A DNA stretch of 64,000 nt, taken from the NCBI RefSeq assembly GCF_006716645.1, contig NZ_VFPL01000001.1, forward strand, positions 2,852,001-2,916,000, in the 5' to 3' direction. The notes below the pieces were generated by a model. It ran no database searches and was not told where the DNA came from. It saw only the letters and a program-made list of their open reading frames with translations. This DNA is from Arcticibacter tournemirensis (GTDB lineage: Bacteria; Bacteroidota; Bacteroidia; Sphingobacteriales; Sphingobacteriaceae). Below are positions 14,225 to 33,266 of this stretch, piece by piece. The first letter of the stretch is position 1; each line of letters begins with the position of its first letter. The translations under genes were made by a program, and so were the position numbers.

Positions 14225-16000
14225 CTAAACAACATTCAGATTTTCTTTTACAGCGATCCAGCAATCCTCTTTTTTTGCCCACTCTCCATAAAGTGCGCCT
14301 GGTGCATTTTGTTTAATAAACTGCTCAACCTGAGTCATCAAGTTATAAATAGAGTCTTGAAGAGTATCGGGAATAGTCTGCTTTTTCCATATTTCATTAA
14401 GATCTATAGAATTTCGATTTTTTAAAGAAAGTAGAGTGAGTGCATAGGGAACAGTAATAAATCGCATATCTCCGATAGAACTTGGTTTTCTACCATATAA
14501 TTTTTCGGCTGTTCTGAATAAAATAGCTTTTGCTATCGTCTCTTCAAAATATTTATTTTCAAGATTTTCAGGTATATTATGCATAATAAATTGCGCATAG
14601 TTTTTCTGACTACCCCTAACCACAATATGAGGGCCAATTACCAATGTGTCTTTCTGATACACTTCGTTCCATGTATTTATAAACTTTGCCAGCTCTTCTT
14701 TCGTAAAAAGCTGCTTTTTAGGGTTTTTAAGATCAAACGCTTTCAGTTTTGTTTTTGTAGTTCCTTCCCGAGACCGTGCATTTCTGTATTGACCTCTTGC
14801 TCTTTCATAAAACCATCTTGTCTGATGAGATTGACCACTGACAGGTGGAGCCCATATATTTCTGGATAATTTTTCAAGTTCAATATGAAACGGTGTATTA
14901 GAACTAAGGTCAGATATAGAAACTTTATTCTGAGTATTGGCATATTCAGCAATACGGCTCACAATTTCCGAAAAATTATTCTTGTCTTTTATTATACTCA
15001 GCTTAACTTGAATGACGATATCTTTTATATCCGCCTTATCCTTCTTCCAAGTGTGGTATATAGATGCTGTTGTTTGTCCTCCATTTACAATCTGAAGATC
15101 TTTTACAGATTCTATCAAATATCCCTTTTCTGTCTTTTTTAGCTTTAAATCGTCGGCAGTAGCTGCAATACCATTGTTAAAAGCCAGGAACATATGCGGT
15201 TCTTTCAGTATGGTATTTCGTATTCCTTTATTTATTTTTCCAGTGAATTGTAGAAAAGACCTCACGTTTTGTTCTAGTAACCGGGCTCCATATTGCTCAT
15301 AAACTGAGACAAGTGCATGCCCTGGGATTAAAGCTAAGTAAGACTGATATTCAGGATTATCTATATCCGCTTTAATACACGGTACTTCAAAACCGTCCTC
15401 TTCAAAATCAATTTCAATAGGAACATATTCTTTCTCAGAAATATTGAAAAGATAATTCAAACCAATTACTCTGAAAAAAACAGGGATCTCGTTTAATTCT
15501 TTTTGTGAAGGGATCTCTCCGTTGTAAATACCGTCAGTTAAGATATATATATTTATTCTTACAAGGTTTTCCCTTAGTTCTGCTGAAGCATTTAAAGTAT
15601 GTGCAAAGTCAAATATCTCAGATGATTCTTCTAAACTGCTCGAATATTCTCTATTATCAGCTTTTTTCAAAAAGGAAAGTAATAGTTTTGCTGCATTATC
15701 AATATCCGATTTCTGTATCCGTGAAGGTTTTTCTGTGCACTTAAATACTGTAACAAAAAGATCTAGGGTTTCATAATTATCCGCAATAGCGTAAGCATTG
15801 ATCTTGTGGCGGTTTCTCGGTATGATACTTTCATGGAAAGAAATTCTAACATCTGCTGTTTCCCCGCCTTCAGTTAGAAGAGCAATAGCGTGAGTAGTAA
15901 ATAACTGTTCTAAAGAACCTCCTTCCTCGTTTGAAAGTTGTTCTGAACGAATATCCTGTAATAGTTCTGTATAAAACCTGTTTAGTTCATGCTGTTCCAT
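14225..16000 (-). CDS. AIPR family protein (abortive phage resistance), last gene of the defence operon
   Basis: 591 residues from ATG 16000; the TTG at 16006 overlaps the preceding stop. The AIPR core is clear: YGARLLEQNVRSFLQF…KGIRNTI…FLAFNNGIAATAD (about 235–285), then LQIVNGGQTTASIYHTW (about 300–316). The family is named after an AbiK-like abortive-infection locus. It is regularly found downstream of Z1 and MORC-like ATPase genes in methylation-linked defence loci, where it probably acts on nucleic acid or as the effector. The start lies 2 nt after the AAA ATPase stop, so translation is coupled. Confidence 0.85.
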   Translation of the reverse strand: MEQHELNRFYTELLQDIRSEQLSNEEGGSLEQLFTTHAIALLTEGGETADVRISFHESIIPRNRHKINAYAIADNYETLDLFVTVFKCTEKPSRIQKSDIDNAAKLLLSFLKKADNREYSSSLEESSEIFDFAHTLNASAELRENLVRINIYILTDGIYNGEIPSQKELNEIPVFFRVIGLNYLFNISEKEYVPIEIDFEEDGFEVPCIKADIDNPEYQSYLALIPGHALVSVYEQYGARLLEQNVRSFLQFTGKINKGIRNTILKEPHMFLAFNNGIAATADDLKLKKTEKGYLIESVKDLQIVNGGQTTASIYHTWKKDKADIKDIVIQVKLSIIKDKNNFSEIVSRIAEYANTQNKVSISDLSSNTPFHIELEKLSRNIWAPPVSGQSHQTRWFYERARGQYRNARSREGTTKTKLKAFDLKNPKKQLFTKEELAKFINTWNEVYQKDTLVIGPHIVVRGSQKNYAQFIMHNIPENLENKYFEETIAKAILFRTAEKLYGRKPSSIGDMRFITVPYALTLLSLKNRNSIDLNEIWKKQTIPDTLQDSIYNLMTQVEQFIKQNAPGALYGEWAKKEDCWIAVKENLNVV

Positions 16001-16002
16001 AA

Positions 16003-17898
16003 TCAAATCAATTCAGAAATTTTTTCCCCCTCAGCAGTATAAATTTCATCGAATATAAAGTTTTCATAGAAGCTAGATACTGCTCCAGGAACATCAGAAA
16101 GAAAGAATATTCCTTCACATAATTTTTTAAGAGATATATAGTTCTTTTCTAAGACCTCGAAATTTTTATATTCTTTTGCCCTATATTGTGAATTGATATT
16201 CGAGTTTAATAGTACTCTGAATGTGTTGTATTGAAATATCCTCAGGTTTTCCAATATTTCAAACCTGTAATAGTAGAGGTCGTTCTTATAGTCTTTTTTA
16301 ATACTGTACATCTGAATTGCATCAGTATTTTTTACCGATAAAATAACTTTTGAAATTATTTTCTGAAGTTCATCTAGTATTTTAAATCCGGTAATAAGTT
16401 CTGCTTTAAATATTGAAGATTTCAGGTCATCATGAGAAAGAGGATTTAGTAACCGGTTTTTGATTCCGGTAAGTTCATCAATGAGTAAGAATGGAATTTC
16501 ATACTGATTGACTAACTTTTTAAATTGATCTATCATTTGTTGTAAAGAGATAAATCTGAAAGTATCTACAGCTGTATCTTCTTCCTCTTTTAATTTGTAA
16601 AACCATGCATTATCATTTTCTGAAATTGAAAGACTTCTTTTTGATAAAGCGACTACACTATTGTCTCCCGATGTACCACTAAAACCTGGATATAAAACAT
16701 TTTCAGGGAGAATTCTCTTTAGCTCTTTTTCAAATGCCTTTCGGAGATAATTCGCACAAGCCGGATAATCTCCTTTAGTGAGATGGTATTCTGCTCTTTC
16801 TCTATACGTATCGGATTTGCGTATAAAGGGGCGTTCGATATCATGACTATGGTTATCTACATAAAATTCTGTTTTTTCCCAGCCTTCAAGATATGGCTTA
16901 GCTATATTGAACCATTCTCTGTCATAAGTTGTGAGGAAAATCTGAGCATCTTTAAATGAACTACCGTCTCCCAAATTATCTGCAGTGAGTATTTTTAGCA
17001 AAGGAATTCTATTGGTCATATCCAGTCCTATAAAGATATCGTCCAGAAACAGAATTCTTAATTCCGCAGGAGGAATACAAAGTTGATGTGCCATAAATAC
17101 GGAGATTGCTATAGCCGTAAGGCGAGCTTCGTTCAGCATATCATCATGTTCTGGCAATTCTTTACCAAAAAGCTTCACTTTAAAGGATATTGTTGGATTA
17201 TTCAGTGTGTTATCATTTATTACCCCATCTGTATATTCTATCTTCAAGCTGCATTCTTTGTGAAAAAAACCAAGCAGCATATTTGCTTTCGCTTCAAGCT
17301 CTCCGAAAAGAGCAGTAACGTTGGTATTGTAATCAGTCAGAGCTTCCTGGTCCAATCCTCCACATTTAATCCAGAGATTTTTATAAGTTATTTTATTTTC
17401 TGGTTGTGCCGGTGCAGGAACAACCATATCTGAAAATAATCCGTCTTGCCCGAGAAATAAAGAAACCAAATCGGGGTTCTGATTATCCTGTCTGAAATGT
17501 AGTTTGAGCAAGTCTCTGTAACTGATAAATCCATTGATAATATTTGCCTGAGTAATATAGTTTGTATTAACTCCCGATTCGTTATTAACCAATAAATATT
17601 GATTACCATCAGAGGAAAACCTGTGATGACTGTTGTCATCAATTTCAATATCAATAAAAGGAGGTTCCGAAGTATTCCGTGCTTCATAAAACAGGTTTTT
17701 TTGAAATGGCTGCGGATTTGTTACTGCATTGAAAAAATCTTTTAAAGCTCGAAAAAGCGATGATTTTCCACTTCCATTTTCCCCATATATTAGTAAGTTC
17801 TCTCCGTTAGGGAGATTTAACGTATAACGAGATGCTTCCTGATCATCATTTATTAGGAACGCCCTGTAATTGCTAATATGTATACGTTTAATTTTCAT
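16003..17898 (-). CDS. AAA/RecF-SMC-like ATPase of the defence operon
   Basis: 631 residues. Walker A IYGENGSGKSSLFRAL (about 37–52), after the typical IHISNYRAF start of RecF/SMC-type ATPases. Walker B/D-loop ILFLDDIFIGLD (about 282–293). About 300 further residues have no known domain. The gene overlaps the Z1 gene by 11 nt and is followed 2 nt later by AIPR. In related MORC/Z1 loci this position is usually held by a PD-(D/E)XK-motif protein; here an ATPase stands in its place. A role in sensing or loading on DNA ends is inferred. Confidence 0.75.
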   Translation of the reverse strand: MKIKRIHISNYRAFLINDDQEASRYTLNLPNGENLLIYGENGSGKSSLFRALKDFFNAVTNPQPFQKNLFYEARNTSEPPFIDIEIDDNSHHRFSSDGNQYLLVNNESGVNTNYITQANIINGFISYRDLLKLHFRQDNQNPDLVSLFLGQDGLFSDMVVPAPAQPENKITYKNLWIKCGGLDQEALTDYNTNVTALFGELEAKANMLLGFFHKECSLKIEYTDGVINDNTLNNPTISFKVKLFGKELPEHDDMLNEARLTAIAISVFMAHQLCIPPAELRILFLDDIFIGLDMTNRIPLLKILTADNLGDGSSFKDAQIFLTTYDREWFNIAKPYLEGWEKTEFYVDNHSHDIERPFIRKSDTYRERAEYHLTKGDYPACANYLRKAFEKELKRILPENVLYPGFSGTSGDNSVVALSKRSLSISENDNAWFYKLKEEEDTAVDTFRFISLQQMIDQFKKLVNQYEIPFLLIDELTGIKNRLLNPLSHDDLKSSIFKAELITGFKILDELQKIISKVILSVKNTDAIQMYSIKKDYKNDLYYYRFEILENLRIFQYNTFRVLLNSNINSQYRAKEYKNFEVLEKNYISLKKLCEGIFFLSDVPGAVSSFYENFIFDEIYTAEGEKISELI

Positions 17899-20800
17899 CC
17901 GTCAGCGTTTGGTAAATAAGTTTGAACTCAGGAATCGTATTAATGGAGTACAATGCTTTCTTTATAGTACTTTGAGGGGCATTCAATATCTGGTAGTAGC
18001 TTTTTATTTGTTCTATATCATTATTAAATGGATCTAGGTCTCTTAATTCCGAAAGAACGCTTAAACGGTTATTTTTAAATATTTCCGGGAAATAAATCTC
18101 AAAGACAACTACATCCAGAACATTCATGAAGTATGAGCTTATTACTCTGTTTTCTCTTGATGCCTGATTCTGCTGAAGGTGTAATATACTTTCTACTAAA
18201 GCAGTTATTGCTAGTATATATTGTGTATCAGCGATAACAGGAAATTCTCTGATTAGTATTTCCGTTTTTTCTCCTTTTCGGTCTACATTGTAAAAAGCAA
18301 AAAGTGCAGAGTTGAACAAAGCCAGTAAATACTCCAAAGCAAGCTCTGAACTTTGAACAGTCAGGCAACTACTATCGGCAACAAAACCAAATTCAGAAAG
18401 TGTAAACTTTTGATCGGTATATATAATAGGAGCTATGATACTTTTCTTTTTTGTCAGTATCTCCCCCGCATTTACGACTTGAAAATCATGATAAGTTTTT
18501 GTATAGTATCTATTAATATCTTCTGCTCTGATTAAGGGAACACCGCCTTCTGTTTGTTCCGGTACTGCAACAGTTTTCGTTTCGAGTTCATTATAATGTT
18601 TACTATAACTTATGTTAGTTCCCTTTTGAAAACCAAGAGAAAGTTCTTTATTGAAGTTTTCCTTATCCTTCATCGTTCTAAGGATAAATGATTTCATTTC
18701 AGTGTTTTTTTCCTCTGTTTCGGCTATCAAAGGATCATCAATTTCATCTTCATCCAGCTCATCGGGATAATCCAAAACTTCTTTTAAAAACTGCTCATTT
18801 ACAGCATACTCGATTTTTATATCTTTTTCAATCCATGGAAAACTTACAGCAAGTCCAACAAACGGAATATCAGATAATGCAGGTTTCTTTTCATCAGGTT
18901 GAGGGTTTAATATATAAATCAGTAACAGGCCCTGATTTTCCGGACGAACCTCTTTGATTCTTACCGGGCTTGGTTTATTAACTCGTGATGAGTCCTTCCC
19001 TTTCTCTACTGCATCCTGTTTTGATTTTTTAAGAGCATTCCTTATCTGCTCGTCTGTCAGATCAATATATTCATGCTTTGGATCTATAATATGTGATTTT
19101 GCAATAGTATAATGATTTACCTGAGTTCCAGAATCGCTTCGTTTAGTTAATCCTACAGTTATATCCTCATTAATTTTTATACCTATTTTATCATCTGTAT
19201 TATTAATCAGCACTACAATCCAATCTGTAATCACTCCATGTCTTTGCTGTGCCTGAATATAATCTGACATCAAAGAAACATTAAATGATAGTTGTTTGGT
19301 TTTATATGCAGATAAGAAGCTAACAACCTTATCTGCATTGCTTTTTCCTCTCCATACAAAATGATTGCGGAATGCAGCTTCTGAATTTGAAATTCCATCA
19401 GGTAATCCCAGGCTATTGATAAATGAAAGAGCGAGTGTATAATTGGAAAGATTTGCTGTATCGTTTTTACGGAAAGAATAGGTTTCTTCCAGCTCTCCGG
19501 AATAACTAAGCTCCATAATTTTCTTGTATCTGAACTTGTTTGCAGCGGTTACTACCAGTGAACCAGGATGCGTCCTTATTTTCAACCCATATTCAGCAGG
19601 TGTTTTATCCAAATCTCCCATGCGGTCAAATTCAGCCCGCATTTCTTCCGTAGCCACTGTAATATGCTGATACCATTGGACAAGCTCATTACTCGTAAAT
19701 AATCTGCACAAATCCAGATATCCTGGACGGTAGCCAAACCATCTGCCCATCTGCATCAATGTGTCGTACATTTTTGACGCACGAAGGAAATACGTAATTG
19801 TCAGCCCTTCAAGGGTAAGTCCCCGAGAGAGTTTATTACCTCCAACTGCAATTACAGAAAGTCCGTTTTTATTATCATAATAATCAAGCGGACGGATATT
19901 TTTATGTTCAAGTCCATCGACTTTTGTATCGCCGTGTACAGATCTGACTTCTACTTTAGCTACCGCGGGATATAGATGAGATTCTATATCCATCCAGGAC
20001 ATTTCTTTTATGGATGGATCTTTGACCGTTGGATTAGCTATAATATTTTTTGTAACGGGTACAAATTCTTCATTCCATAGATGTTCAAGTTCTCTCAGGA
20101 ATGCATTATCATTAAATTCTACTAAACGTGCGTAAGTTTTTACCTGTTCTTCTACCAAACGGCCAATTCTGGCCTGCCATTTTATAAACCTTGTTACGTG
20201 TATCAACATTGAGTTATGTTCATTTTCCTGACCACGGGCTCTTCTGGCTGCACAGGATAAAAAGAAACATTTTATTGCTTTATGAAGGCTTGGCGGGAGT
20301 TCATCAGGTTTCTCATCATCCATTTTATGCCCATCTTTTATATAATTTAAATAGTCATCTACAGGTTCTATTAAATCATTCAATGGATAGGACGGATTGT
20401 CATAATCTTCAATCGATTCAATAGTCTCGATACCAAAAATTTTCTCTGGTCCAATGTAGTTAGAAGGAGCTGGTATATTAACAATAAAGTTTTTTGGGAA
20501 AATGTCTTTTCCTAAAGATAAAGGTATATTATGTACGTTATAATCAAGTCCTTTGACATCATCATCTGTATATTGTTTAATGAAAATATTTGCATAAGGA
20601 GTAGCTGTATAACCAATATAAGCACTTTGTTCAAACAATTTCAACATGGAACGGATACAGGCATTGATTCCTGAAACATAGTTTTTACTGATGTTTATTG
20701 ATGCATTATCCGCCTCGTCATCAATAACCAGCAAAGGCAGATTTTTGATCTGTTTTTTTCCATCTTCCATCGTTTCTGCTCTGCTTGCCAGCCAACCCAA

Positions 20801-21574
20801 CAGATTTTTCATAACAGAAGCATTTTTCTTGATGACGAGTACTATCGGATCATTACTACGAATATTAATACCTGACGTTTCGGAAGCTTTTCGATTAAAA
20901 TCTCCATTAATTTCATTGGTGGTCAGTGAATGCGCTACCAGATTAGGATCAATCTTACCTACACCGATTCTGTTTGTGGTTTGAGTTATGCTTCGGGCTT
21001 GTTGGGTATCAAATCCCAGAAAGCCTTCATCAATGCGCAGCTGAGTCTGGGAACGTAAACTATTGTGAATCCCTGCTAATACAATAATCAGTTTATATCC
21101 TGCGTCTGCAGCCTTACATATCAATCCGATATAGTTCCCGGTTTTCCCTGATTGTACATGACCGACAATTAATCCTCTTTTATCAAAAGGAATATTGCTT
21201 CCTGGTCGAATCAACCTGTCAAGAATATCATCTGTCAGGTTATCCATTTTATTCAGTGTGTCCGGCGCATAGTTCCGTTGTTCCAGTAACATTCTATAAC
21301 GATTCCAGAATTTCCATTCTATTTCTGCTTTGGCATTTTTTATCCAAGGAATTCTTTTTTTATCTTCCTCTGCATCCAATATGCGATACTGATCAGAAAA
21401 TACCGCATATCGTACTTCAAGTTCTTCACGAAGAGTTGACAGTTCAGGTTCAGAAAGAGAGAATAGCTTGTTGACATTCTCTACCGTGGTTTTTATTAAA
21501 TCGGCATTCATACTTTCGGTTGCCCCTGAAAGCATTGTTACACACACATTTTTTGCCTGTTCGTATTTAGTCAT
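17888..21574 (-). CDS. Z1-domain SF2 helicase/endonuclease with an extra TRD-like C-terminal region
   Basis: 1228 residues from ATG 21574, which gives the usual ATGA overlap with the GHKL gene; ATG 21580 is also in frame. Walker A GHVQSGKTGNYIGL (about 138–151), DDEADNAS (about 285) and GGNKLSRGLTLEG…MYDTLMQMGRWFGYRPGY cut by family consensus (575–620) define the Z1 superfamily. Typical Z1 proteins end near residue 930. Here about 300 residues are added, with VPLIRAEDINRYY…SIIAPIIY and LLALFNSALFAFYN, the pattern of target-recognition domains of Eco57I/TaqI-type enzymes. It is the probable motor or nuclease of the system. Confidence 0.85.
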   Translation of the reverse strand: MTKYEQAKNVCVTMLSGATESMNADLIKTTVENVNKLFSLSEPELSTLREELEVRYAVFSDQYRILDAEEDKKRIPWIKNAKAEIEWKFWNRYRMLLEQRNYAPDTLNKMDNLTDDILDRLIRPGSNIPFDKRGLIVGHVQSGKTGNYIGLICKAADAGYKLIIVLAGIHNSLRSQTQLRIDEGFLGFDTQQARSITQTTNRIGVGKIDPNLVAHSLTTNEINGDFNRKASETSGINIRSNDPIVLVIKKNASVMKNLLGWLASRAETMEDGKKQIKNLPLLVIDDEADNASINISKNYVSGINACIRSMLKLFEQSAYIGYTATPYANIFIKQYTDDDVKGLDYNVHNIPLSLGKDIFPKNFIVNIPAPSNYIGPEKIFGIETIESIEDYDNPSYPLNDLIEPVDDYLNYIKDGHKMDDEKPDELPPSLHKAIKCFFLSCAARRARGQENEHNSMLIHVTRFIKWQARIGRLVEEQVKTYARLVEFNDNAFLRELEHLWNEEFVPVTKNIIANPTVKDPSIKEMSWMDIESHLYPAVAKVEVRSVHGDTKVDGLEHKNIRPLDYYDNKNGLSVIAVGGNKLSRGLTLEGLTITYFLRASKMYDTLMQMGRWFGYRPGYLDLCRLFTSNELVQWYQHITVATEEMRAEFDRMGDLDKTPAEYGLKIRTHPGSLVVTAANKFRYKKIMELSYSGELEETYSFRKNDTANLSNYTLALSFINSLGLPDGISNSEAAFRNHFVWRGKSNADKVVSFLSAYKTKQLSFNVSLMSDYIQAQQRHGVITDWIVVLINNTDDKIGIKINEDITVGLTKRSDSGTQVNHYTIAKSHIIDPKHEYIDLTDEQIRNALKKSKQDAVEKGKDSSRVNKPSPVRIKEVRPENQGLLLIYILNPQPDEKKPALSDIPFVGLAVSFPWIEKDIKIEYAVNEQFLKEVLDYPDELDEDEIDDPLIAETEEKNTEMKSFILRTMKDKENFNKELSLGFQKGTNISYSKHYNELETKTVAVPEQTEGGVPLIRAEDINRYYTKTYHDFQVVNAGEILTKKKSIIAPIIYTDQKFTLSEFGFVADSSCLTVQSSELALEYLLALFNSALFAFYNVDRKGEKTEILIREFPVIADTQYILAITALVESILHLQQNQASRENRVISSYFMNVLDVVVFEIYFPEIFKNNRLSVLSELRDLDPFNNDIEQIKSYYQILNAPQSTIKKALYSINTIPEFKLIYQTLTDEN

Positions 21575-23031
21575 AGACATTCAATTAATTCCGGATATTC
21601 ATTAAATGGCTCAATAAGTAATAACCTGTTTTTTGCCTGTTCCGGTGTGTTAGTATTCAATAATGAATTATATACTGCTTTCAGCAATTCTTTCAGTTCA
21701 CTGGAAGCTGCTACTCTTTCAAATGGTCTGAAAAATGAATCCGGGTTTTCGGATTCATTAATAACTATCAATGGAACTGGTAATGTTTCTTCCAACAATC
21801 TGATGAGCGGTTTTACAGCTTTCAGATCCATTGATACAATAAGAGGATGAGTCTGATTTATTTCGTAATAGCGCTTTCCATCCCTTTGTTTTTCTATCCA
21901 TACGGGCTGAAAATGCTGCGTTGTGGCATTCCGTTGAACAACTTTACCTCTGTGCCTATAAACCTCAACAGCCTGAGCTCTTACAAGGGACGCATAAGCT
22001 TTTAGATTGTCTTTTAGCCCGAAAGGGGCTCTTGCGACTGATTTTTTAATATCAATCTGCCATTCTCCATCCAGGCTATTCGGTAGGTCAATCATTATTC
22101 TTGCCAGTTTGAAGTGTTCTTCTTTTCTGAACAATCCTAACCATTCTCCGCTAACCAGCATTCGTTCATTTCGGTATACATAAAATCCCTGTTGTGCATT
22201 CCAACCTTTAACGCCTTCCGCGTTCCTGAATTCTTCCGGTGCAAGTTTGGATTTATGAGGTAAAACAAAGCCCCGGACTTTAATTTTTCCATTATGTAGT
22301 GGTTCTTCAGGAAAATTCTGTGTTGCTGTATGCTGTATAAGAAAAGGATTCCACGCTTCAACTTCCCTGCCACTGAAAAATATTCTTGTTTTATTGCCTT
22401 CAATATAACGATGAAAAACAGTTGCGATATGTTTTTTGATACGTTCCATCGTTTGCAAAAATTTGTCGTAAGCTCTTTTATCGTCTTTAGCTATACCCTT
22501 CAACAAATGATCTATATCCTGCCAGATGACAATCGTTCCGGAAGTTAAATTCTGCATTTGTTCGTTCCAGTTTCCATCAGGTAATAATGCGATCAGTTTC
22601 CACTCTTTTGCATAATGATAAACATAATCCAGATCCCATGTCCAGAAAACAGGTTCTTTTGATTTCTTTTTAGAAACGACTGTGTATTTCCTGCACTGTG
22701 AAAATGAGGCGGTTTTTAATCCCAAGCCAAAACGACCAAGATCTTTTATATGCCGTTCTTCATTCGGATCTCTAGAACCCGGACGCATCGCGTTAATCAA
22801 TTCATCATTCGTCATACCACAACCATCATCTTTTATTGAAAATGTGGTGTCTGCCCCTTTCCAGTCAAAATCTATCCATATATTTTTCGCCTCAGCTGAT
22901 ATCGAATTGTCTAGTATGTCCGCAACAGCTGCTTCCATACTATAACCTACAGCTCTGAACGACTCAAGCATATTAACTGCAATTGGTGCAGCATCAGCGG
23001 TTGGATATTTTGAGTAATCGGAAGTGGTCAT
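21571..23031 (-). CDS. MutL/MORC-like GHKL ATPase
   Basis: 486 residues. Bergerat-fold motifs: N box DILDNSIS (38–45), G1 DDGCGM (68–73) and G2 GRFGLGLKTASF (99–110). The middle domain has WQIDIKKSVARAP, typical of MutL/MORC-type transducer domains. Prokaryotic GHKL ATPases of this kind sit beside Z1 helicases, C5 methyltransferases and Vsr in restriction-like operons and are regarded as the ancestors of eukaryotic MORC proteins. The protein probably clamps DNA on ATP binding. The gene overlaps Z1 by 4 nt and begins 31 nt after the 280-aa gene. Confidence 0.85.
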   Translation of the reverse strand: MTTSDYSKYPTADAAPIAVNMLESFRAVGYSMEAAVADILDNSISAEAKNIWIDFDWKGADTTFSIKDDGCGMTNDELINAMRPGSRDPNEERHIKDLGRFGLGLKTASFSQCRKYTVVSKKKSKEPVFWTWDLDYVYHYAKEWKLIALLPDGNWNEQMQNLTSGTIVIWQDIDHLLKGIAKDDKRAYDKFLQTMERIKKHIATVFHRYIEGNKTRIFFSGREVEAWNPFLIQHTATQNFPEEPLHNGKIKVRGFVLPHKSKLAPEEFRNAEGVKGWNAQQGFYVYRNERMLVSGEWLGLFRKEEHFKLARIMIDLPNSLDGEWQIDIKKSVARAPFGLKDNLKAYASLVRAQAVEVYRHRGKVVQRNATTQHFQPVWIEKQRDGKRYYEINQTHPLIVSMDLKAVKPLIRLLEETLPVPLIVINESENPDSFFRPFERVAASSELKELLKAVYNSLLNTNTPEQAKNRLLLIEPFNEYPELIECL

Positions 23032-23062
23032 CTGTTATTTAGGTTAGGTTTTTACCAAGTAC

Positions 23063-23905
23063 TTAATATTCATTGTTAAATTCTTCTCTTAATATCGCTG
23101 CAACAGCTTCAGTTTCCAATAGAGTAGTTCCTGTTGTTTGTATAACAAGGCCTAGCCCCTGATCTGTTCCTGTAAGTACCAGTTCAACTCTTCCATCGGG
23201 ATAACAAGATTTTACAAAGTCGTTATTATGAGGATTAAAGGGTAACGAATTTATCACCCTTGTGACATAGGGTGATCTAATCAGCTTTTTGGAGAACTTT
23301 AATAGCAAATCTTTACCATGGTCATCTCTCAGACTGATTGCCTTTTGTTGTATCTGCAAATCAGTGACAGCTAATTTTATCCCCAATCTTGAAATAATCC
23401 AATCCTTGTGCTGTTCTATATGAGATATCTGACTTGCGTGCCTGACTTTAATATTCTGATCCTCACTATCTGCTTCCGAAAACCTGATATCAATTTCATG
23501 TGAATTCCATTTTTCAGCTGAACAAAGGCTAACGGCTATAGTCTTGTAGAGGTAGGCAACTGCCAATCCTTCTACGGAAGTATTTTTTTCTTCATTCAGA
23601 AAACCATAAGATGAAATAAAACGCTCTTCAGTTGATGTGTCTCCGTCTTCAATATAAGGGTGCCTGACAATGCTTAGTAGCAAATCTTTGTAAGTTCTTG
23701 TTACAGATGGGTCACTTAGCCAATCTCTGACACAATAGTTCTCTGCCAGATATTGCTCATAAAAATCAGTTCTGATTGCTAATCTTGACATCCCGGACTC
23801 CCTGCCTTTTTTACATACCTGAAGCAGATTATTAATTCCTTTTTTACCTGCATGAATATCAGTAGCAACGTTGCCAAAACACAGTTCATTAAAAATGAAA
23901 TCCAT
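23063..23905 (-). CDS. Unrecognised operon protein of 280 aa
   Basis: 280 residues, soluble, no signal peptide: MDFIFNELCFGNVATDIHAGK at the start, IKVRHASQISHIEQHKDWI in the middle, GRVELVLTGTDQGLGLVIQT at the end. No family or catalytic motif recognised. It starts 7 nt after the DUF3696 ATPase stop and ends 31 nt before the GHKL gene. Position and spacing link it to the DUF262–DUF3696 pair; proteins of this size often accompany DUF3696 ATPases. It could be an effector or adaptor (inference only). The gene is undoubtedly coding by its operon position. Confidence 0.75.
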   Translation of the reverse strand: MDFIFNELCFGNVATDIHAGKKGINNLLQVCKKGRESGMSRLAIRTDFYEQYLAENYCVRDWLSDPSVTRTYKDLLLSIVRHPYIEDGDTSTEERFISSYGFLNEEKNTSVEGLAVAYLYKTIAVSLCSAEKWNSHEIDIRFSEADSEDQNIKVRHASQISHIEQHKDWIISRLGIKLAVTDLQIQQKAISLRDDHGKDLLLKFSKKLIRSPYVTRVINSLPFNPHNNDFVKSCYPDGRVELVLTGTDQGLGLVIQTTGTTLLETEAVAAILREEFNNEY

Positions 23906-23912
23906 AAAGTGT

Positions 23913-25025
23913 TTATATTAATTTAAAAAGCTGAGAACTCCATTCATCTAATAACCCTTTAGGATATTCACTTAATTCCCCATTCTTGTCAATGTTTATA
24001 GTAGTAATCGCAGATTCGTGTTCAGCTTTCCCATTGGATACTCTGTCAAAATAGTAGATTGCCGCTTCTGAATGTAGAAGCTTAGTTTCTTTTATAGCTA
24101 CTCTTATTCCATTAAGGATATGATCACTATGTGTCTCGACAAATATCTGGCAATCATTCGCTGTAGATAGTGCAATGAGCTCACCGATTTTTGCCTGCCC
24201 TTGTGGATGAATATGTGATTCTGGATTTTCAATAATTGTAATTTTGTCTGGAGCTATAGTGAGCAAAGCCACAACTACCGGTAGGGCATAGGTGATACCA
24301 AAACCAACATTAATTGGTTTGTATTCATTGGTATATCCGTTCTCAGCTTCATATTGAAAGCCGAGACGAATAGAATCCACGCCCTTAATGTCTTCTACAA
24401 TTACTTTGACTCCGGGACTTATTTCGTTTAACCATGCTTCTACGTTATGAAGCAATCGATTCGATTTGGCTTTAGGGTGGATCAGATTGGCATATTGTAT
24501 TGGCTCCAATCCATACTCTGAGAGATAATGAACAGCATATTCTCCGTGCTTACCTATCTGCCGGTTATGAACTACTTCAAACTCTGACTTTTTATATGTA
24601 TTAAGAGGAACAATATGCTCTGTATTTAGGTATTGGAAGTTCCTATTGAAGAGACTAAATTTTGATAGTTGATCTGTGTAAGTACTTTTATTAATAACGG
24701 GTAAAATGTCAGAATCTGCTGAATATGTAAAATCCCAGTAATAGGTATGATTAGTAGTGTTGATTTTTATTTTTACAAATTCATCTTTACCGGCAAACTG
24801 ATTAAAAATGTCTTTACCTGTTCCTAATTCAACGAGATTCCCTTTCAAATTTAAACCGGCTGTCGATAAAATTCCGGACTGTTGAGATTGTCTCAGTAAT
24901 AGGAGCACCTGAATAATTGAAGATTTGCCAGTACCATTTAGTCCCGTAAACAAACTAAGGGTTCTTAAAGAAAGCTTACTTCTTTTGAACAACTTAAAAT
25001 TTTCTATTTCTATATCTTTTATCAT
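23913..25025 (-). CDS. DUF3696 AAA ATPase
   Basis: 370 residues. Walker A TGLNGTGKSSIIQ (about 27–39), Walker B ITIIENPESHIHPQGQ (about 263–278) with the ABC-like signature, H-loop-like ETHSDH shortly after, and a C-terminal GLLDEWSSQLF that marks the DUF3696 extension. This is the RecF/OLD-type ATPase group with a short insertion in place of a TOPRIM nuclease. The gene overlaps DUF262 by 4 nt (ATGA), so the two are translationally coupled. It probably forms a nucleotide-driven sensing complex with the DUF262 protein. Confidence 0.85.
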   Translation of the reverse strand: MIKDIEIENFKLFKRSKLSLRTLSLFTGLNGTGKSSIIQVLLLLRQSQQSGILSTAGLNLKGNLVELGTGKDIFNQFAGKDEFVKIKINTTNHTYYWDFTYSADSDILPVINKSTYTDQLSKFSLFNRNFQYLNTEHIVPLNTYKKSEFEVVHNRQIGKHGEYAVHYLSEYGLEPIQYANLIHPKAKSNRLLHNVEAWLNEISPGVKVIVEDIKGVDSIRLGFQYEAENGYTNEYKPINVGFGITYALPVVVALLTIAPDKITIIENPESHIHPQGQAKIGELIALSTANDCQIFVETHSDHILNGIRVAIKETKLLHSEAAIYYFDRVSNGKAEHESAITTINIDKNGELSEYPKGLLDEWSSQLFKLI

Positions 25026-26515
25026 TGTTGTATTTGTTTTTGGATTAAGTTTTCAATAGCGGTGAATCTTTTTGTTACTCTTTTTCTGTCGCCCGTTCCG
25101 GAACTTAAAGAGTCTGAGAAAACAGAATCTTCATTTAATAAGAGAATAAATTCATCCGTCAATTTATCTTTTTGCTCGATGAGTAATTTTAAATCTTCAT
25201 TTGTAAGTTTAGCGAGAGAGACTGACCAAACCTCAAAAAGAGCTTTATTGATTGGTTTACGATTATCGGCTCGGCTAAATCGCTTACGAAAAGCATCTTC
25301 ACCAAATAGGCTGTAAGCTCCGTTCATCGCTCCTATGAACTTAGACTTTATTTCTAATCTTTCGCTATCACTTAACTCCTTTAGGGCGGCCATAGATTTA
25401 TTCATAAAAGTATCTAAGTCCGGTTGGTAGCCTTTATAAGGATTTAAATAAAAAGATAAAAATCTTGTAACAAAATCCCTGTCGAGCATCCTGTGAGTTT
25501 TTATAGTATAAGAAGTGGCTCTTTTAAATTCATCCAAATCAGCAAGCTCTTTTACAAAAAGAGCCGGTACTCCCTGATTGATCGCATGTCTAATTTCCTG
25601 CGGCTCGAGTATAAGTGCAGTAGTATTAATTCTTTTGAATACATTATATTTTACCTCGTCAGGAGTGCCTGGGTTTATTATATAAACAGTTATTTCTGCT
25701 TCATCAATCCGTCTTTGCAGATTACGTGGAAGATCATCGTAGTTACAGCCATTGAATTGATCTAAAAACTCCAGATTCTGAAGTTTCAAAGTTTTGTCGA
25801 TGACGAAATTCTTAAGAGTGCTTATTCGTTGAAGACCGTCTACAATTAACCACTGATCTTCATCTGTTCCATCAAAATAAAATGCTGGCAATGGAAATCT
25901 GATTAAAATTGATTCTATAAGCCTGCTTTGCTTCATAGGATCCCACAAATCACCTTGTCTCTGAAAATCTGTAAAAAGATTTATCTCTTTTCGGGAAATA
26001 CGTTTGAATATAGAATCTAAGATCAAGGTTTTGCTGGTAATGTCAATCCTCTTCGGATCAAACGGTTTAATGATTTCTGATGATAGTGTATCTTCTTTTT
26101 CAACATCCGGATTATGCTGATCGCGAAGTATAGCATTATCTAAATCGCTTTTTGAATCATCATCTAAAAGGTCTTCATCATCATCGTTTGCCAACCGTCC
26201 ATCCAGCATTTTGATCTTTCTGATAATTTGATCTTTATCAACCGCTTCTGCTTTCTTTCCCTCTTCTGTCAAGGACCAATATGCCCGTCCGGTTCTTTCG
26301 AGTAATCCTACTCTTTTTAAATAATTTCTAGACCATGCAAGCCGATAGCCCAGTTTTGTTCTATTGTCTTTGTGTACTTCAAGAATATCTTCAGTAGATA
26401 AATCAAGAAGTTCAGAAACTTTATCTTCAATTTCTTTAATATGAGCTTCTCCGCCTAAGCTTTTGAGTGCCTGGAGAGTCGGATTCATCATATCTTCAAA
26501 TACTGGAACTGGCAT
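25022..26515 (-). CDS. Mrr-N winged helix fused to DUF262 (GmrSD-N-like) protein
   Basis: 497 residues. Residues about 1–95 resemble the Mrr N-terminal winged helix (PTLQALKSLGGEAHIKEIED…LAWSRNYLKRVGLL). Residues about 175–320 form DUF262, with FQRQGDLWDPMKQSRLIESI and VDGLQRISTLKNF, the DGQQR-type nucleotide-using motif with Leu in the fourth position, and YNVFKRINT. DUF262 proteins include the NTP-dependent half of the modification-dependent restriction enzyme GmrSD. The C5 methyltransferase gene is 37 nt upstream. The protein may read the modification state made or lacking in this system (inference). Confidence 0.8.
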   Translation of the reverse strand: MPVPVFEDMMNPTLQALKSLGGEAHIKEIEDKVSELLDLSTEDILEVHKDNRTKLGYRLAWSRNYLKRVGLLERTGRAYWSLTEEGKKAEAVDKDQIIRKIKMLDGRLANDDDEDLLDDDSKSDLDNAILRDQHNPDVEKEDTLSSEIIKPFDPKRIDITSKTLILDSIFKRISRKEINLFTDFQRQGDLWDPMKQSRLIESILIRFPLPAFYFDGTDEDQWLIVDGLQRISTLKNFVIDKTLKLQNLEFLDQFNGCNYDDLPRNLQRRIDEAEITVYIINPGTPDEVKYNVFKRINTTALILEPQEIRHAINQGVPALFVKELADLDEFKRATSYTIKTHRMLDRDFVTRFLSFYLNPYKGYQPDLDTFMNKSMAALKELSDSERLEIKSKFIGAMNGAYSLFGEDAFRKRFSRADNRKPINKALFEVWSVSLAKLTNEDLKLLIEQKDKLTDEFILLLNEDSVFSDSLSSGTGDRKRVTKRFTAIENLIQKQIQQ

Positions 26516-26552
26516 AATTAAATTTATTAGTTGTCAAAATCGACGTAACTCT

Positions 26553-28166
26553 TTACAATGTATATTCTCTTAATAATTTCTTTGCTTTCTTACTCATTCC
26601 TACAGCACTGAAAACGTTGAAAACAATCTCTGCTATCTGGTTTGCTAAAAGTGGGGGAACTGCATTACCAACCTGAATAAATTGTGATGTACGGGGGCCA
26701 CAAAAAAAATAATTATCCGGAAATGTTTGAATTCTTGCAGCTTCCCGCACTGTAAAACTGCGACATTGAGTCGGATCATAATGAATATAGTAATGCCCGT
26801 CTTGTGATATATGGCTTGTGATAGTTTTTGAAGGCTTGTTTTTGAGCTGTACCCTGAAGCGATCGGCAAATTTGCGTGTAATACGGCCATCATTACTGTA
26901 AACATTTTTATGATCAGGTAATAATGCCAAAGGAAAATCCGATAACTGCGGAGAATACCCCTTGATATTAGCAAAACATGAAATAAAAAAATACCTGTGC
27001 AGATCGCTCTCCATATGTCCTCTTGCTGCATGATTGCACACACCCCCGAGTCGATTATCAATGAACCAATCAGCCCGATATTCTGTATTTAATTTCTGAT
27101 CTGCTATAAATTCTTTCCCGGAACCTTCATCAGGTAGCTTTAATAAAGAAAGGCTTTTTACAATTTCATGTTTTATTTCTGCCTGAATACCTGTTAATAT
27201 TCCGCGTTTCATTATCCCATTCACAAAATCTTTCCATTTCTCTCCGCTATCATCCCCCCTTGAGGGTTTCCCCCGGAGTTTCGTAAGACCAGACAGTACC
27301 TTAGAAATCGCAACCTGCGTTTGTTCCTCTAAAACACCAGGGATAAAACTTATGTCGTTTCGCACGCCTAACAATATTACCCTATGTCTTGTCTGTGGGA
27401 TACCGTAGTTTTCAGATCTTATAAGAAAGTCTTTCTGCTGGATAATGGGCTCCCCATCAGCACCAAAATCTTTAGGATTTACGACAAGAGAAAATATCTT
27501 ATATCCCGGGCAAGCGAGCTCCTGTCCATTTCGTTTATAATCTTTTAAATATGCAGTTACCGGATTTGCTAAATCTTTAAGGATTTTAGTAAAGACCGGG
27601 CTTTTTTCTGTTGTAGCGGATAAAAGTCCTTTAACGTTTTCCATCACAAATACGGCAGGATTATGGACCGCTAGTATTCGCAAATATTGTTTATATAAGC
27701 CAACTCTTTCATCCGTTGACTCATCCAGAATATTTTGCTTTCGTCTCACTCTTCCTACAACTGAATAGGCCTGACACGGTGGGCCGCCTATTAATAGCCA
27801 GTTTCGCTCACCATTCAAGGCTTCATATATCTTTTTATCAACCAAGTTGCTTGAAACAGCATCCTTCGACTCCCCAAGTGTAGCCAACCAGGTTTCGTTC
27901 GTAGCATGACCAGCTTCTACAGGATATCTTTTATACAGTTCTTCTAAAGAAATATTTCCCTTTACGAATTCGTAATAATCTTTCGGTGCCTTGCTCGGCT
28001 CAAATTGCCTAAAAAAACTTCTTAGTGTCAGTGTTTGATGGGCATATCTATCTTTTTCGATTGATAACGCAATTTTGAATACTCTTTTCCCCGCTGGGTT
28101 AAGCAATGAACTGAAGCCTTCTCCAAGCCCGCCTGGTCCCGCAAAAATGTCAATTATAGGTATCAT
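26553..28166 (-). CDS. DNA (cytosine-5) methyltransferase
   Basis: 537 residues with all key C5-methylase motifs: I DIFAGPGGLGEGF (6–18, SAM binding), IV GGPPCQAYS with catalytic Cys131, VI VMENVKG (Glu175), VIII QTRHRVILLG (about 265) and X FIQVGNAVPP (about 505). About 200 residues between VIII and X form the target-recognition region; the target cannot be predicted by eye. It methylates host DNA in a sequence context. The Vsr gene ends 1 nt upstream, the standard pairing that repairs T:G mismatches arising by deamination of 5mC. It is longer than plain Dcm (about 470 aa). Confidence 0.92.
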   Translation of the reverse strand: MIPIIDIFAGPGGLGEGFSSLLNPAGKRVFKIALSIEKDRYAHQTLTLRSFFRQFEPSKAPKDYYEFVKGNISLEELYKRYPVEAGHATNETWLATLGESKDAVSSNLVDKKIYEALNGERNWLLIGGPPCQAYSVVGRVRRKQNILDESTDERVGLYKQYLRILAVHNPAVFVMENVKGLLSATTEKSPVFTKILKDLANPVTAYLKDYKRNGQELACPGYKIFSLVVNPKDFGADGEPIIQQKDFLIRSENYGIPQTRHRVILLGVRNDISFIPGVLEEQTQVAISKVLSGLTKLRGKPSRGDDSGEKWKDFVNGIMKRGILTGIQAEIKHEIVKSLSLLKLPDEGSGKEFIADQKLNTEYRADWFIDNRLGGVCNHAARGHMESDLHRYFFISCFANIKGYSPQLSDFPLALLPDHKNVYSNDGRITRKFADRFRVQLKNKPSKTITSHISQDGHYYIHYDPTQCRSFTVREAARIQTFPDNYFFCGPRTSQFIQVGNAVPPLLANQIAEIVFNVFSAVGMSKKAKKLLREYTL

Positions 28167-28167
28167 G

Positions 28168-28584
28168 TTAATGTACTATTTTGTGATAAAGGCTATTAAG
28201 TGTTTCGTCCAAAGTGTTACTTTTCAATTCGCATTCCCAAACTATAATTACATTCCAGCCATCAGATATCAATTTAAAGACAGCTTTATCATCATTAGCT
28301 TTATTGAGGTCAATTTTGTTCTGCCACCATTCCGTTCTGGTTTTTGGAATCACGTAATATTTACAATCCTTATGTCCGTGCCAGAAACACCCATGAATAA
28401 ATACAGCTGTATTATAGCGCGGAAAAACAATGTCTGGTTTACCTGATAAGCGTTTATCATGTAGACGATATCTCAATCCTTTTGAAAGAAGGAATTTTCT
28501 AACCAGGATTTCAGGCTTTGTATCCTTCCCTCTGATCATACTCATGTTGTAGCTTCTTACCTCTTTAGAATGCACATCTGCCAT
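28168..28584 (-). CDS. vsr: Very short patch repair endonuclease Vsr
   Basis: 138 residues covering the whole Vsr fold. Catalytic-type residues are in GKPDIVFPRY (Asp51) and HGCFWHGH (His64, His69), at the same numbers as in the E. coli enzyme. RGKDTKPE lies near the start and WWQNKIDLNKAND in the zinc/DNA region. Vsr nicks 5' to the T of T:G mismatches created by 5-methylcytosine deamination. The gene lies between AbiEii (1-nt TAATG overlap) and the methyltransferase (1-nt gap). The start at 28584 is fixed by that overlap. Confidence 0.93.
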   Translation of the reverse strand: MADVHSKEVRSYNMSMIRGKDTKPEILVRKFLLSKGLRYRLHDKRLSGKPDIVFPRYNTAVFIHGCFWHGHKDCKYYVIPKTRTEWWQNKIDLNKANDDKAVFKLISDGWNVIIVWECELKSNTLDETLNSLYHKIVH

Positions 28585-29441
28585 TATATTATTTTATTAA
28601 AGAGATTTAAAAGATCATTTTTAACTAGCTCATAATCGGGAAGCTTTTCTGAGATCAACTGATGCCCTAAACTGTTTTTCCAAGCTAACTTTACAGCCCG
28701 TTCATTTTTAGGATTTATGAGTTGATTTTTTCCCTCAAATTCAAGCCCCTTAAATTTCATTTTTTCAAAAAAGGCGTCAGTAATTGCTTTCCAATCCAAG
28801 TCGTTTACATTGTTTGACAAATACCATATATCATAATAATCCCGTGGAGCGGTATAGGAACGTTGTATCAGTGCCCGGATTTTTTCTGACAATACCTCCT
28901 TCAAATCATAGCAAGGAATCTCATTGGTGGCTGTGGTTAGCTTGTCAGAGTAATTGTGATATACCGGACGCATTACTACAGGAAAAATCATTCGCTCATA
29001 TTGAATAATTTCAATTTTAATGGAAGTTGTCCACCGTTCTGGAGCAGGGGGAGCCTGATCTTTTGCATGATCAGCGCCCCAGAATTTTACGACAGCTGTA
29101 TAGCCGGTTGGGTTGTCCCGATGTTTTAATTCAGTAAGTTTATCAACATGCAACTGCATCTCTGTCCGGCTACTTACTAAATCTATGATTTGCTGAAGTA
29201 ATTGTTCGTCAAGTTTGAATTGCGGGTTGAGTGCTATGAAATCAAGATCCTCAGAAAATCTATAGTTTTCCAAGTAACATTTCCGAAGACATGTACCTCC
29301 TTTAAATACGAGGCTTTTAGCACATTCTTCCACGGAAAATATTGCATCAATAAAGTGGCCAAGTACCCATTCCTTATCAATGGTACTTCTTGATACTCCA
29401 CTTGCGGCAGCTTTCTTTTCTATCTCTTTCTTGAGTATCAT
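28584..29441 (-). CDS. abiEii: AbiEii-type nucleotidyltransferase toxin
   Basis: 285 residues. Nucleotidyltransferase motifs: LVFKGGTCLRKCY (44–56) and YRFSEDLDF (60–68, the DxD metal site). A later lysine motif DLKEVLSEKIRALIQR (about 183–198) completes the AbiEii/AbiGii set. In AbiE systems this enzyme is the growth-arresting toxin, acting by tRNA/NTP modification, and AbiEi is its antitoxin and repressor. The gene overlaps AbiEi by 1 nt and Vsr by 1 nt. The toxin is thus embedded in the same transcript as the methylation system. Confidence 0.88.
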   Translation of the reverse strand: MILKKEIEKKAAASGVSRSTIDKEWVLGHFIDAIFSVEECAKSLVFKGGTCLRKCYLENYRFSEDLDFIALNPQFKLDEQLLQQIIDLVSSRTEMQLHVDKLTELKHRDNPTGYTAVVKFWGADHAKDQAPPAPERWTTSIKIEIIQYERMIFPVVMRPVYHNYSDKLTTATNEIPCYDLKEVLSEKIRALIQRSYTAPRDYYDIWYLSNNVNDLDWKAITDAFFEKMKFKGLEFEGKNQLINPKNERAVKLAWKNSLGHQLISEKLPDYELVKNDLLNLFNKII

Positions 29442-30241
29442 TAGTATTGCTTATTTGAAATTTCAATCAATTCTTGTCTGTCTATATTGAGGCGTAGTCT
29501 CCATTCGGAGACGAATTCTCCCTCTTCTAAGCCTTGAGGATCTAATAAATTGTATTTATTGTTAACTTCCGTTTTCGCAAAATCTACAAAAGAGGCTAAC
29601 GTTTTGCGCTCAAATAACTCCACTAAAAATCCGATACGCTTTGTGACAGCAATATTTCTGATTGATTTACAGTAAGTAATAAGCTTTGGGGAATCCATTT
29701 CTGCCACACTAACAGCTCGGATGAGTTCGGCATAGCCACCTGAATATTGAGGCTGATCAAAGCAATCCACGATTGTTTTTTCAATATCAGTAATTGGATA
29801 GCGGAGGCTTCCGTATCCATTCCAAACAATACCAACTCTTTTATAAGCAGCAATTTTGACAAACTTGTATGTTGTCCCTAAAATGTTCTTGTCTTTTTTT
29901 TTATTGGTTGTTTGTATAAATACAGTGTTGGCAAATTGTTCGGTTAATCCATGCAGGTTAAGTGCCGACCAATAGGCAATGGCGCTCTCTTCCACTACAA
30001 AGGTTCCTATAACAAACTCATCTCTGAAGTTAGGCCGGCAAAATTTTCCTTTTTCGATCCTGGTAAGCAATTCTTTGTGAACCAGATTTTCGAGAATCTC
30101 ATTTAAATTTTCGAATTTCCGGTTGAGTTGCTTTTCGATATCTGAGAATTTAAATAATTGTATTTCAAAGTCGTCCAGCATTTTTAAGAACTCCAATTGA
30201 GTTTTAGTTAGATTTGCAGATATATAAACACTGTCGGCCAT
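29441..30241 (-). CDS. abiEi: AbiEi-type antitoxin / repressor, first gene of the operon
   Basis: 266 residues from ATG 30241 (MADSVYISANLTKTQLEFL). An upstream GTG at 30352 is in frame but adds 37 residues without family support. Residues about 1–75 form a winged helix; then GKFCRPNFRDEFVIGTF and the central AYWSALNLHGLTEQF…VFIQTTNKKK resemble the AbiEi C-terminal antitoxin domain. The family binds inverted repeats in its own promoter. It therefore probably regulates the whole 11-gene operon, though a clear palindrome was not identified in the leader. Confidence 0.82.
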   Translation of the reverse strand: MADSVYISANLTKTQLEFLKMLDDFEIQLFKFSDIEKQLNRKFENLNEILENLVHKELLTRIEKGKFCRPNFRDEFVIGTFVVEESAIAYWSALNLHGLTEQFANTVFIQTTNKKKDKNILGTTYKFVKIAAYKRVGIVWNGYGSLRYPITDIEKTIVDCFDQPQYSGGYAELIRAVSVAEMDSPKLITYCKSIRNIAVTKRIGFLVELFERKTLASFVDFAKTEVNNKYNLLDPQGLEEGEFVSEWRLRLNIDRQELIEISNKQY

Positions 30242-30653: not shown

Positions 30654-30904
30654 TGGATATTCCGGAGCATGTTGACCCCTCCAAAGCGGTTAGGATAGCG
30701 GATAGCGATGCTGCTTAAATCAACAGAAACGCCTGCCATTCCGGCGGATACTGACCCCCTCTGAGAGATAGGCGCAATGCGTACCGGAGCATGTTGCCCC
30801 CCTGATATTGACTTAAAGGGGATACCGTACCGGAGCATACTGACCCCTCTAATTCTGGTTTTGGTTATACTTAGTGATCAATTTATTACAAAAGAAGATC
30901 ACTG

Positions 30905-32461: not shown

Positions 32462-32462
32462 T

Positions 32463-33179: not shown

Positions 33180-33266
33180 AATTGTCAGGCCTTCAGAATC
33201 TATGGGCCAAAACCAAATTAGGGGGTCAGTATGCCCGGTACGGGGTCAGCATCTCCGGAATCTCCA

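Follow-up and report, generated by a model that had tools for sequence, protein, structure and literature searches.

A variant Mza operon in Arcticibacter tournemirensis with an extended Z1 protein and a HEPN-like ATPase in the place of MzaD

Operons that combine MORC ATPases and Z1 helicase-like proteins with restriction-modification (R-M) genes have been described, and neighborhoods of MORC, Z1, C5-methylase, Vsr and AIPR genes were reported by Iyer in 2008 (PMC2292703). The mzaABCDE genes are also in print, mzaA being found in just a few related systems (PMC9523054); here, as for every paper cited by accession in this text, excerpts of the source are relied on. The literature surveyed offered no detailed mechanism for Mza or for other systems of the MORC-Z1 type. 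We describe the gene content and gene order of an eleven-gene defense locus in the bacterium Arcticibacter tournemirensis, the homology of its proteins and the co-variation of its parts among related loci. The window, that is, the whole stretch of DNA analyzed, spans 64,000 nucleotides (nt; assembly GCF_006716645.1, contig NZ_VFPL01000001.1, positions 2,852,001-2,916,000), and the locus occupies its positions 14225-30241 as 11 consecutive open reading frames (ORFs) on the minus strand. Its core is that of Mza, except that MzaD is missing, the Z1 protein carries a C-terminal extension resembling the specificity end of type IIG enzymes, and an ATPase with a likely HEPN domain stands where MzaD is expected.

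The proteins PrrC and RloC provide the comparison for this ATPase. Their nuclease domain is a HEPN domain joined to a Rad50-like ATPase, and PrrC is restrained by a linked R-M system (PMC3710099, PMC3506569). They share the triad R-x3-E...H, often with a serine preceding the histidine, and alanine at any of the three positions kills the activity of RloC (PMC2610378).

Operon layout and Mza core

A preliminary description of this DNA had pointed to a run of eleven genes, all on the same strand and no more than 37 nt apart, to its richness in AT, and to MORC-Z1-C5-Vsr-AIPR as a known theme. These observations hold: the intergenic gaps, in the order of transcription, are -1, -1, 1, 37, -4, 7, 31, -10, -11 and -4 nt, the GC content is 0.363 in the run and 0.452 in the remaining window, and the theme is documented (PMC2292703). 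The same description overlooked the absence of MzaD, the Z1 extension and the HEPN-like motif. Judged from the sequence, a single transcript of all eleven genes is plausible. Terminator-like sites between 13500 and 31000 number 6, fewer than the 10.1 found in shuffled sequences, and two of them are on the minus strand, one within NsnA and one past the run. A scan for Bacteroidota-type promoters gave no exact site and 51 relaxed sites, a raw count without a control set. Signature motifs were present in the eight proteins checked (AbiEii, Vsr, C5, NsnA, NsnB, MORC, Z1 and AAA), apart from the Walker B motif of the AAA protein. The genes of the core and its R-M companions, all on the minus strand and listed in the order of transcription with protein lengths in amino acids (aa), are as follows.

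28168..28584, minus strand: Vsr mismatch endonuclease, 138 aa (Pfam PF03852, E 8.4e-34)
26553..28166, minus strand: C5-cytosine DNA methylase, 537 aa (Pfam PF00145, E 3.8e-40; top PADLOC model DrmMII, 9.8e-88; PPC, ENV and GNAVPP motifs)
21571..23031, minus strand: MzaB, MORC/GHKL ATPase, 486 aa (PADLOC MzaB, E 3e-103; Pfam HATPase_c_3)
18746..21580, minus strand: MzaC core, Z1 helicase-like, residues 1-945 of 1230 aa (PADLOC MzaC, E 4.2e-169 over 49-930; Pfam Z1, 5.7e-82)
17888..18724, minus strand: C-terminal extension of the Z1 protein, residues 953-1230 (hhalign to the Eco57I/TaqI_C specificity end of type IIG enzymes)
16003..17898, minus strand: Rad50/RecF-like ATPase with a C-terminal HEPN-like domain, 631 aa (R386-x3-E390, N485-x2-S488-H489; in the expected MzaD position)
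14225..16006, minus strand: MzaE, AIPR protein with AIPR_N, 593 aa (Pfam AIPR, E 5.6e-94, AIPR_N, 2.9e-38; PADLOC MzaE, 1.3e-88)

As in Mza, the MORC, Z1 and AIPR proteins match the PADLOC models MzaB, MzaC and MzaE, and the genes for the first two overlap; as in the MORC-Z1 restriction operons (PMC2292703), Vsr and a C5 methylase are encoded alongside. Unlike Mza, the window has neither the DUF4420 nuclease MzaD nor the sigma factor MzaA: MzaD/DUF4420 was absent among the PADLOC and Pfam matches listed for all eleven proteins, and MzaA among those listed for the scanned window genes. Two further differences are the type IIG-like extension of Z1 and the ABC-HEPN-like ATPase (ABC, ATP-binding cassette) in the place of MzaD. 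Because MzaD was not found between Z1 and AIPR, we class the locus as a Mza variant and not as a standard member.

To place this variant among its relatives, we used a Z1-alignment scan of bacterial and archaeal genomes, which yielded at least 581 confirmed stretches; the best 80 of these, with up to 10 kb on each side, form the set of Z1 loci discussed below. Their most frequent gene order is (Vsr)-C5-MORC-Z1-MzaD-AIPR. Of the 80 loci, 73 contain MzaD, which family models verified as DUF4420/MzaD in one representative. An extended Z1 protein occurs in only two loci, L032 and L034; in both, the ATPase is present and MzaD is missing. The MzaD state and the extension-ATPase state never occur together in a locus, and five loci have neither, two of these being ended by the contig. 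The picture is the same when only the 74 loci with at least 1300 bp downstream are counted (69 with MzaD, 2 with extension and ATPase, 3 with neither). In a midpoint-rooted tree of the Z1 core (79 rows including the window; Z1 proteins shorter than 850 aa, in 2 of the 80 loci, were omitted), the window, L032 and L034 form one group with a support of 98. L032 is the nearest relative, its Z1 protein being 73% identical to that of the window, and divergence among the three extension loci reaches about 45% identity. A plasmid search with the window Z1 protein returned 41 records, none covering 80% of it.

Three of the 80 loci (L037, L040 and L061) show a third Mza architecture, without MzaD and without an AIPR match, and form a group of their own in the Z1 tree. 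Their Z1 proteins of 1046-1058 aa follow a 174-177 aa protein without a known family, and a 483-532 aa protein is encoded in the operon.

The Z1 extension and the HEPN-like ATPase

Homology to Z1/MzaC stops near residue 945 of the 1230-residue window protein. Among 395 genomes of the phylum, 33 (this genome included) match the protein, 18 in the Z1 core and 15 in the C-terminal region only. One of these 15 (G335, L138) was scanned with Pfam and contains Eco57I and TaqI_C, as do the enzymes of L147 and L145, found via the ATPase, with TaqI_C falling below the cut-off in L145. When the three Z1 extensions were aligned by hhalign with the C-termini of 12 large ATPase-adjacent proteins, the match had a probability of 99.5% (E 2e-22) over window residues 1047-1224; the control, against the catalytic region of the same enzymes (11 rows; one protein below 800 aa omitted), gave 0.1%.

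Homologues of the window ATPase sit directly downstream of such Eco57I/TaqI_C-type enzymes. Across the 12 loci with a large protein matching the extension, the ATPase or a remnant of it lies directly downstream or one small ORF away in 7, and one locus is too short to tell. Of the 12 enzymes whose C-termini entered the hhalign comparison, 9 are preceded by a protein of 1049-1128 aa, the contig ending at that point in 2 others, and the three such proteins that were scanned are all PLD-SNF2 helicases. For the trio of PLD-SNF2 helicase, type IIG enzyme and ATPase no name was found in literature searches. The window shares with it the specificity-side C-terminus and the ATPase family; in the trio this C-terminus belongs to an adenine methylase beside the PLD-helicase, whereas the window has it as part of the Z1 protein, with a C5 methylase nearby. 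When plasmids were searched with the window ATPase, 3 records were returned, one of which, from Nostoc, has a TaqI_C-annotated gene under the match.

Two related arrangements were seen. The genome of A. tournemirensis itself holds a complete trio of PLD-SNF2 helicase, Eco57I type IIG enzyme and ABC-HEPN-like ATPase on its contig C2, at about 168.5-179.0 kb (L145:8503-17353, L182:1-4022). In L020 (positions 2088-2426), a short gene behind a type IIG-like gene joins the first residues of the ATPase straight to its domain with R-x3-E...N-x2-S-H, such as an in-frame loss of the ATPase core would leave.

The ATPase has a Walker A motif and matches the AAA and SMC_N families. The Walker B pattern was missed, yet D286 and D287 are invariant in an alignment of 14 homologues (frames shorter than 400 aa, L142 and L144, were omitted, and weaker or fragmentary matches left out). 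Past residue 350, the only positions fully invariant in all 14 are P357, R386, E390, N485, S488 and H489, so that R-x3-E and N-x2-S-H both recur in every C-terminal part. Like PrrC and RloC, the protein combines an N-terminal Rad50/SbcC-like ATPase with C-terminal R-x3-E...S-H residues, and like that of PrrC its gene lies within an R-M operon. The partner is MORC/Z1 here, or type IIG/PLD-helicase in homologues, unlike the type I HsdMSR partner of PrrC. The low-confidence model of the full-length protein resembles Rad50/SMC heads (best E 1.0e-3). With the model of the 175-residue C-terminal domain, in which the helices scored higher than the whole, the first seven PDB matches found by Foldseek, although short of significance, were Csm6 chains, 2q00 chains and an annotated HEPN protein. 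On these residues and models, the C-terminal domain is likely a HEPN domain and a candidate RNase.

In the ATPase tree (midpoint root), the window, L032 and L034 again form one group (98/96), and four trio ATPases lie on the same side of a 100/100 branch. Given the shared groups in the Z1 and ATPase trees, a single transplant of the extension-ATPase pair into a Mza lineage would be the simplest account. Viral contigs scanned with the ATPase profile gave 100 pattern matches and no relatives.

Menshen, AbiE and the cargo positions

The remaining five genes belong to two other known systems, Menshen between the C5 methylase and MORC, and AbiE at the head of the run.

29441..30241, minus strand: AbiEi antitoxin/repressor, 266 aa (PADLOC AbiEi, E 4.7e-93; no Pfam match at E<=0.01; open frame from 30352)
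28584..29441, minus strand: AbiEii nucleotidyltransferase toxin, 285 aa (Pfam PF08843, E 4e-36; PADLOC AbiEii, 1.1e-88)
25022..26515, minus strand: NsnA (Menshen), Mrr_N winged helix and DUF262/GmrSD_N, 497 aa (PADLOC NsnA, E 3.2e-137; Pfam Mrr_N, GmrSD_N)
23913..25025, minus strand: NsnB (Menshen), AAA ATPase and DUF3696, 370 aa (PADLOC NsnB, E 3.6e-112)
23063..23905, minus strand: NsnC (Menshen), the "280-aa protein" of the preliminary description (PADLOC NsnC, E 1.3e-71)

In 67 of the 80 Z1 loci the readable DNA extends 1.5 kb or more beyond the first core gene on its upstream side. A C5 gene lies upstream of MORC on the same strand in 54 loci; in 30 of these the two genes are at most 150 nt apart with nothing between, and in 17, read by eye, other genes intervene (split MORC pieces, Vsr and MORC-Z1 inserts being excluded). 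The cargo of this slot comprises a NOV_C-domain protein (a cluster of 7 loci, Pfam-checked on L032 and L079), a large GHKL protein (a cluster of 5, checked on L043), an HhH-GPD glycosylase (a cluster of 2, checked on L049), an HNH protein in L034, a CARF-kinase protein in L050, the MzaA sigma factor in L104, and several others without a family match. In the window the slot is filled by Menshen; the nearest relative, L032, has its NOV_C protein there. The HhH-GPD DNA glycosylase follows a C5 methylase where no Vsr match was found (L049:7280-7960, Pfam-checked, and L070:7491-8168), which is consistent with Vsr repairing deaminated 5-methylcytosine here.

Menshen is already in print, and its protection against phage is lost upon mutation or deletion of the DUF262 gene (PMC10952713). 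NsnA, NsnB and NsnC are contiguous and in this order in the window, as in Menshen, and by PADLOC they make a complete system. Nsn is the prefix that PADLOC uses for Menshen. The idea that the DUF262, DUF3696 and 280-aa proteins are a new module, or the last a protein of an unknown kind, was accordingly rejected. The comparison set comprised 15 other loci: those of every further NsnC-bearing genome in a set of 395 from the phylum (5 genomes), and those of the best 10 of the 48 further genomes with an NsnA match in a set of 287 from the class. NsnA is next to NsnB in all 15, and a third gene, for a protein of 245-319 aa, comes next in 14. The module lies within or behind R-M genes in 4 of the 15, or 5 of 16 with the window: Vsr-C5-AAA_5-LlaJI-Menshen in L228, HsdM-HsdS, two small ORFs, Menshen and HsdR in L232, HsdM-HsdS followed after 424 nt by Menshen in L134, and an Eco57I-domain enzyme overlapping Menshen by 4 nt in L136. 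The window differs from published Menshen in lying between a C5 methylase and MORC and in the N-terminal Mrr_N of its NsnA (25022-26515), which is unmatched in the 15 other loci; their matches begin at residue 111 or later, and the N-terminus therefore looks exchanged. Residues 179-276 of NsnC match the end of the PADLOC model CARF_DUF2103 (E 7.8e-13). Plasmid searches returned 138 records with NsnA and no match with NsnC.

The AbiEi-AbiEii pair, with its 1-nt overlap, is a type IV toxin-antitoxin pair of the AbiE kind; AbiEi autoregulates its own operon in one studied case (PMC7725324). We compared 16 pairs, from 14 of the 104 other matching genomes (taken from the better-scoring ones), the second copy of this genome and the window; in one of them, L193, a stop interrupts AbiEii. 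R-M-type operons headed by AbiE account for 3 of the 16: in the window, in L182, where the divergent pair of contig C2 stands 41 nt ahead of the PLD-helicase/type IIG/ATPase trio, and in L187, where it overlaps HsdM-HsdS-HsdR by 4 nt. The window pair leads straight into the R-M operon. The loci of the two nearest AbiEii relatives (57% and 46%) differ: a gene comes next at a distance of 206 or 95 nt and, by eye and without a family search, was not recognised as R-M. In L189 and L190 the pairs lie 24 and 0 nt upstream of genes that look, from their sequences, like transporter genes for branched-chain amino acids; on this evidence, the role of AbiE as head of an operon is not limited to defense genes.

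A match to the window Z1 protein was found in 7 of 120 relatives' genomes and in none of 5 from the same genus, from which the operon looks recently gained. An IS21-type istA/istB pair lies just upstream of the run at 30905-33179, within an element at about 30654-33266, some 0.4 kb upstream of AbiEi, that has a pair of 14-bp inverted repeats and, at one end, several repeats containing CTCCGG. Just past this element, a DUF3800 protein (34493-35647) matches the candidate defense model PDC-M04A (E 3e-11).

Possible mechanism and alternative explanations

The explanation that we favor, with moderate confidence, is a layered defense operon, namely a Mza variant in which an effector that cleaves RNA would have taken the place of DNA cleavage, Menshen filling a cargo slot that recurs among related loci. 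We put forward more tentatively that the locus represents a new Mza subtype that lost the PD-(D/E)XK nuclease, a specificity-domain and ABC-HEPN module having moved in from a type IIG trio and the specificity domain having been fused to Z1 as the trigger of an RNA-cleaving growth arrest. In the layered scheme, the C5 methylase would mark self DNA, Vsr would repair the T:G mismatches arising from deamination of 5-methylcytosine, and MORC and Z1 would engage unmarked or altered DNA. The Z1 extension might supply sequence recognition, dock the ATPase, or both. Upon triggering or inhibition of the complex, the ABC-HEPN protein would cut tRNA or other RNA and translation would stop, as with PrrC beside EcoprrI; tRNA is proposed as the target by analogy. 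AIPR, predicted to hold a HEPN RNase (PMC3506569), could be a second abortive effector, and Menshen a layer of its own that senses DNA. The whole transcript may be under repression by AbiEi, whose control of the downstream operon genes is possible by analogy.

Several results weigh against this proposal. The variant with Z1 extension and ATPase is known from three examples, and the 80 loci are the best of at least 581. The TaqI_C match in the window extension lies below the Pfam cut-off (E 0.0017, 19.1 bits against 26.5), and Pfam found no TaqI_C in L032 or L034, so that sequence recognition by the extension is putative. In 4 of the 12 other extension-matching loci the ATPase is absent beside the large protein, a count that bears equally on the view, which we also considered, that the extension serves only to dock the ATPase. 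Between glutamate and histidine the window protein has a spacer of 98 residues; over the 14 homologues the range is 56-114, and none of them falls within the 36-52 of RloC. Because of this, we do not class the ATPase as RloC or PrrC. Set against those two proteins, it is also unmatched by family models, no anticodon nuclease being named among the PADLOC and Pfam families shown for it. Model quality is modest, with a mean predicted local distance difference test score (pLDDT) of 66 for the domain and 50 for the whole ATPase, and the HEPN fold matches are not significant (best E 0.078). A PDB sequence-profile search with the domain returned FliS as top matches and no PrrC/RloC or HEPN chain.

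The weakness of the HEPN fold matches and the spacer unlike that of RloC fit a rather unlikely alternative in which AbiE, Menshen and Mza are independent and share a promoter alone, the ATPase sensing DNA or regulating without any nuclease activity and the Z1 extension being the relic of a type IIG gene. OLD/RecF-type ATPases related to the window ATPase act as sensors, which counts for this alternative, and the modules are indeed separable among the Z1 and Menshen loci. Yet a relic would not be expected to stay with the ATPase in three loci down to about 45% Z1 identity, and the finding that, bar one proline, RNase-motif residues alone are invariant after residue 350 also counts against this alternative. 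A further explanation, which we judge distinctly less probable still, is that the ATPase is a true HEPN RNase cutting mRNA or invader RNA and not tRNA anticodons, or acting only once DNA cleavage by a slot nuclease fails. HEPN RNases do include the mRNA-cleaving RNase LS/LsoA (PMC3710099), and the slot cargo of two relatives includes NOV_C and HNH proteins; the ABC ATPase with a C-terminal R-x3-E...SH triad is, however, the arrangement of PrrC and RloC, both of them tRNA-specific.

The preliminary description had joined all the parts into one compound system, with AbiEi controlling expression, methylation labeling self DNA, DUF262/DUF3696 together with GHKL/Z1 acting against DNA that lacks the mark, and AbiEii as a final safeguard. 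The eleven one-strand genes with their short gaps, AbiE at the head of R-M-type operons in 3 of 16 pairs, the R-M linkage of Menshen in 5 of 16 loci, and an AbiEii-like gene about 7 kb from the Menshen of L133, on the other strand, speak for such a system. We nevertheless consider it very improbable. Scored by BLASTP with the window proteins (E 1e-3) within the retrieved DNA, none of the best 80 Z1 loci has an Nsn gene or an AbiE pair, the nearest thing being one weak AbiEi-like match on the opposite strand in L093, and neither MORC nor Z1 was found in any of the 15 other Menshen stretches. In L032, whose core is the same, the place of Menshen is taken by the NOV_C protein, and the 5.7 kb upstream contain no AbiE. 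The co-conservation of AbiE, DUF262 and MORC/Z1 parts thus came out against one system within this sample, and an eleven-gene co-evolved system was rejected.

Neither a type IIG-like extension on a Z1 protein nor the replacement of MzaD by an ABC-HEPN protein turned up in literature searches. The MORC chromatin proteins of eukaryotes are believed to have descended from the bacterial MORC of such systems (PMC2292703). A variant in which the nuclease is replaced by an RNase-motif module and a transplanted specificity end separates recognition from effector, and offers point mutations that would test triggering by MORC/Z1. The locus also adds evidence that R-M operons have preferred cargo positions, the C5-MORC slot and the operon head, that take whole systems such as Menshen and AbiE. 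If the more tentative reading, that of a new Mza subtype, is true, this would be, as far as literature searches show, the first MORC/Z1 system with a tRNase effector, and R-M systems would exchange sensor-effector cassettes across system types.

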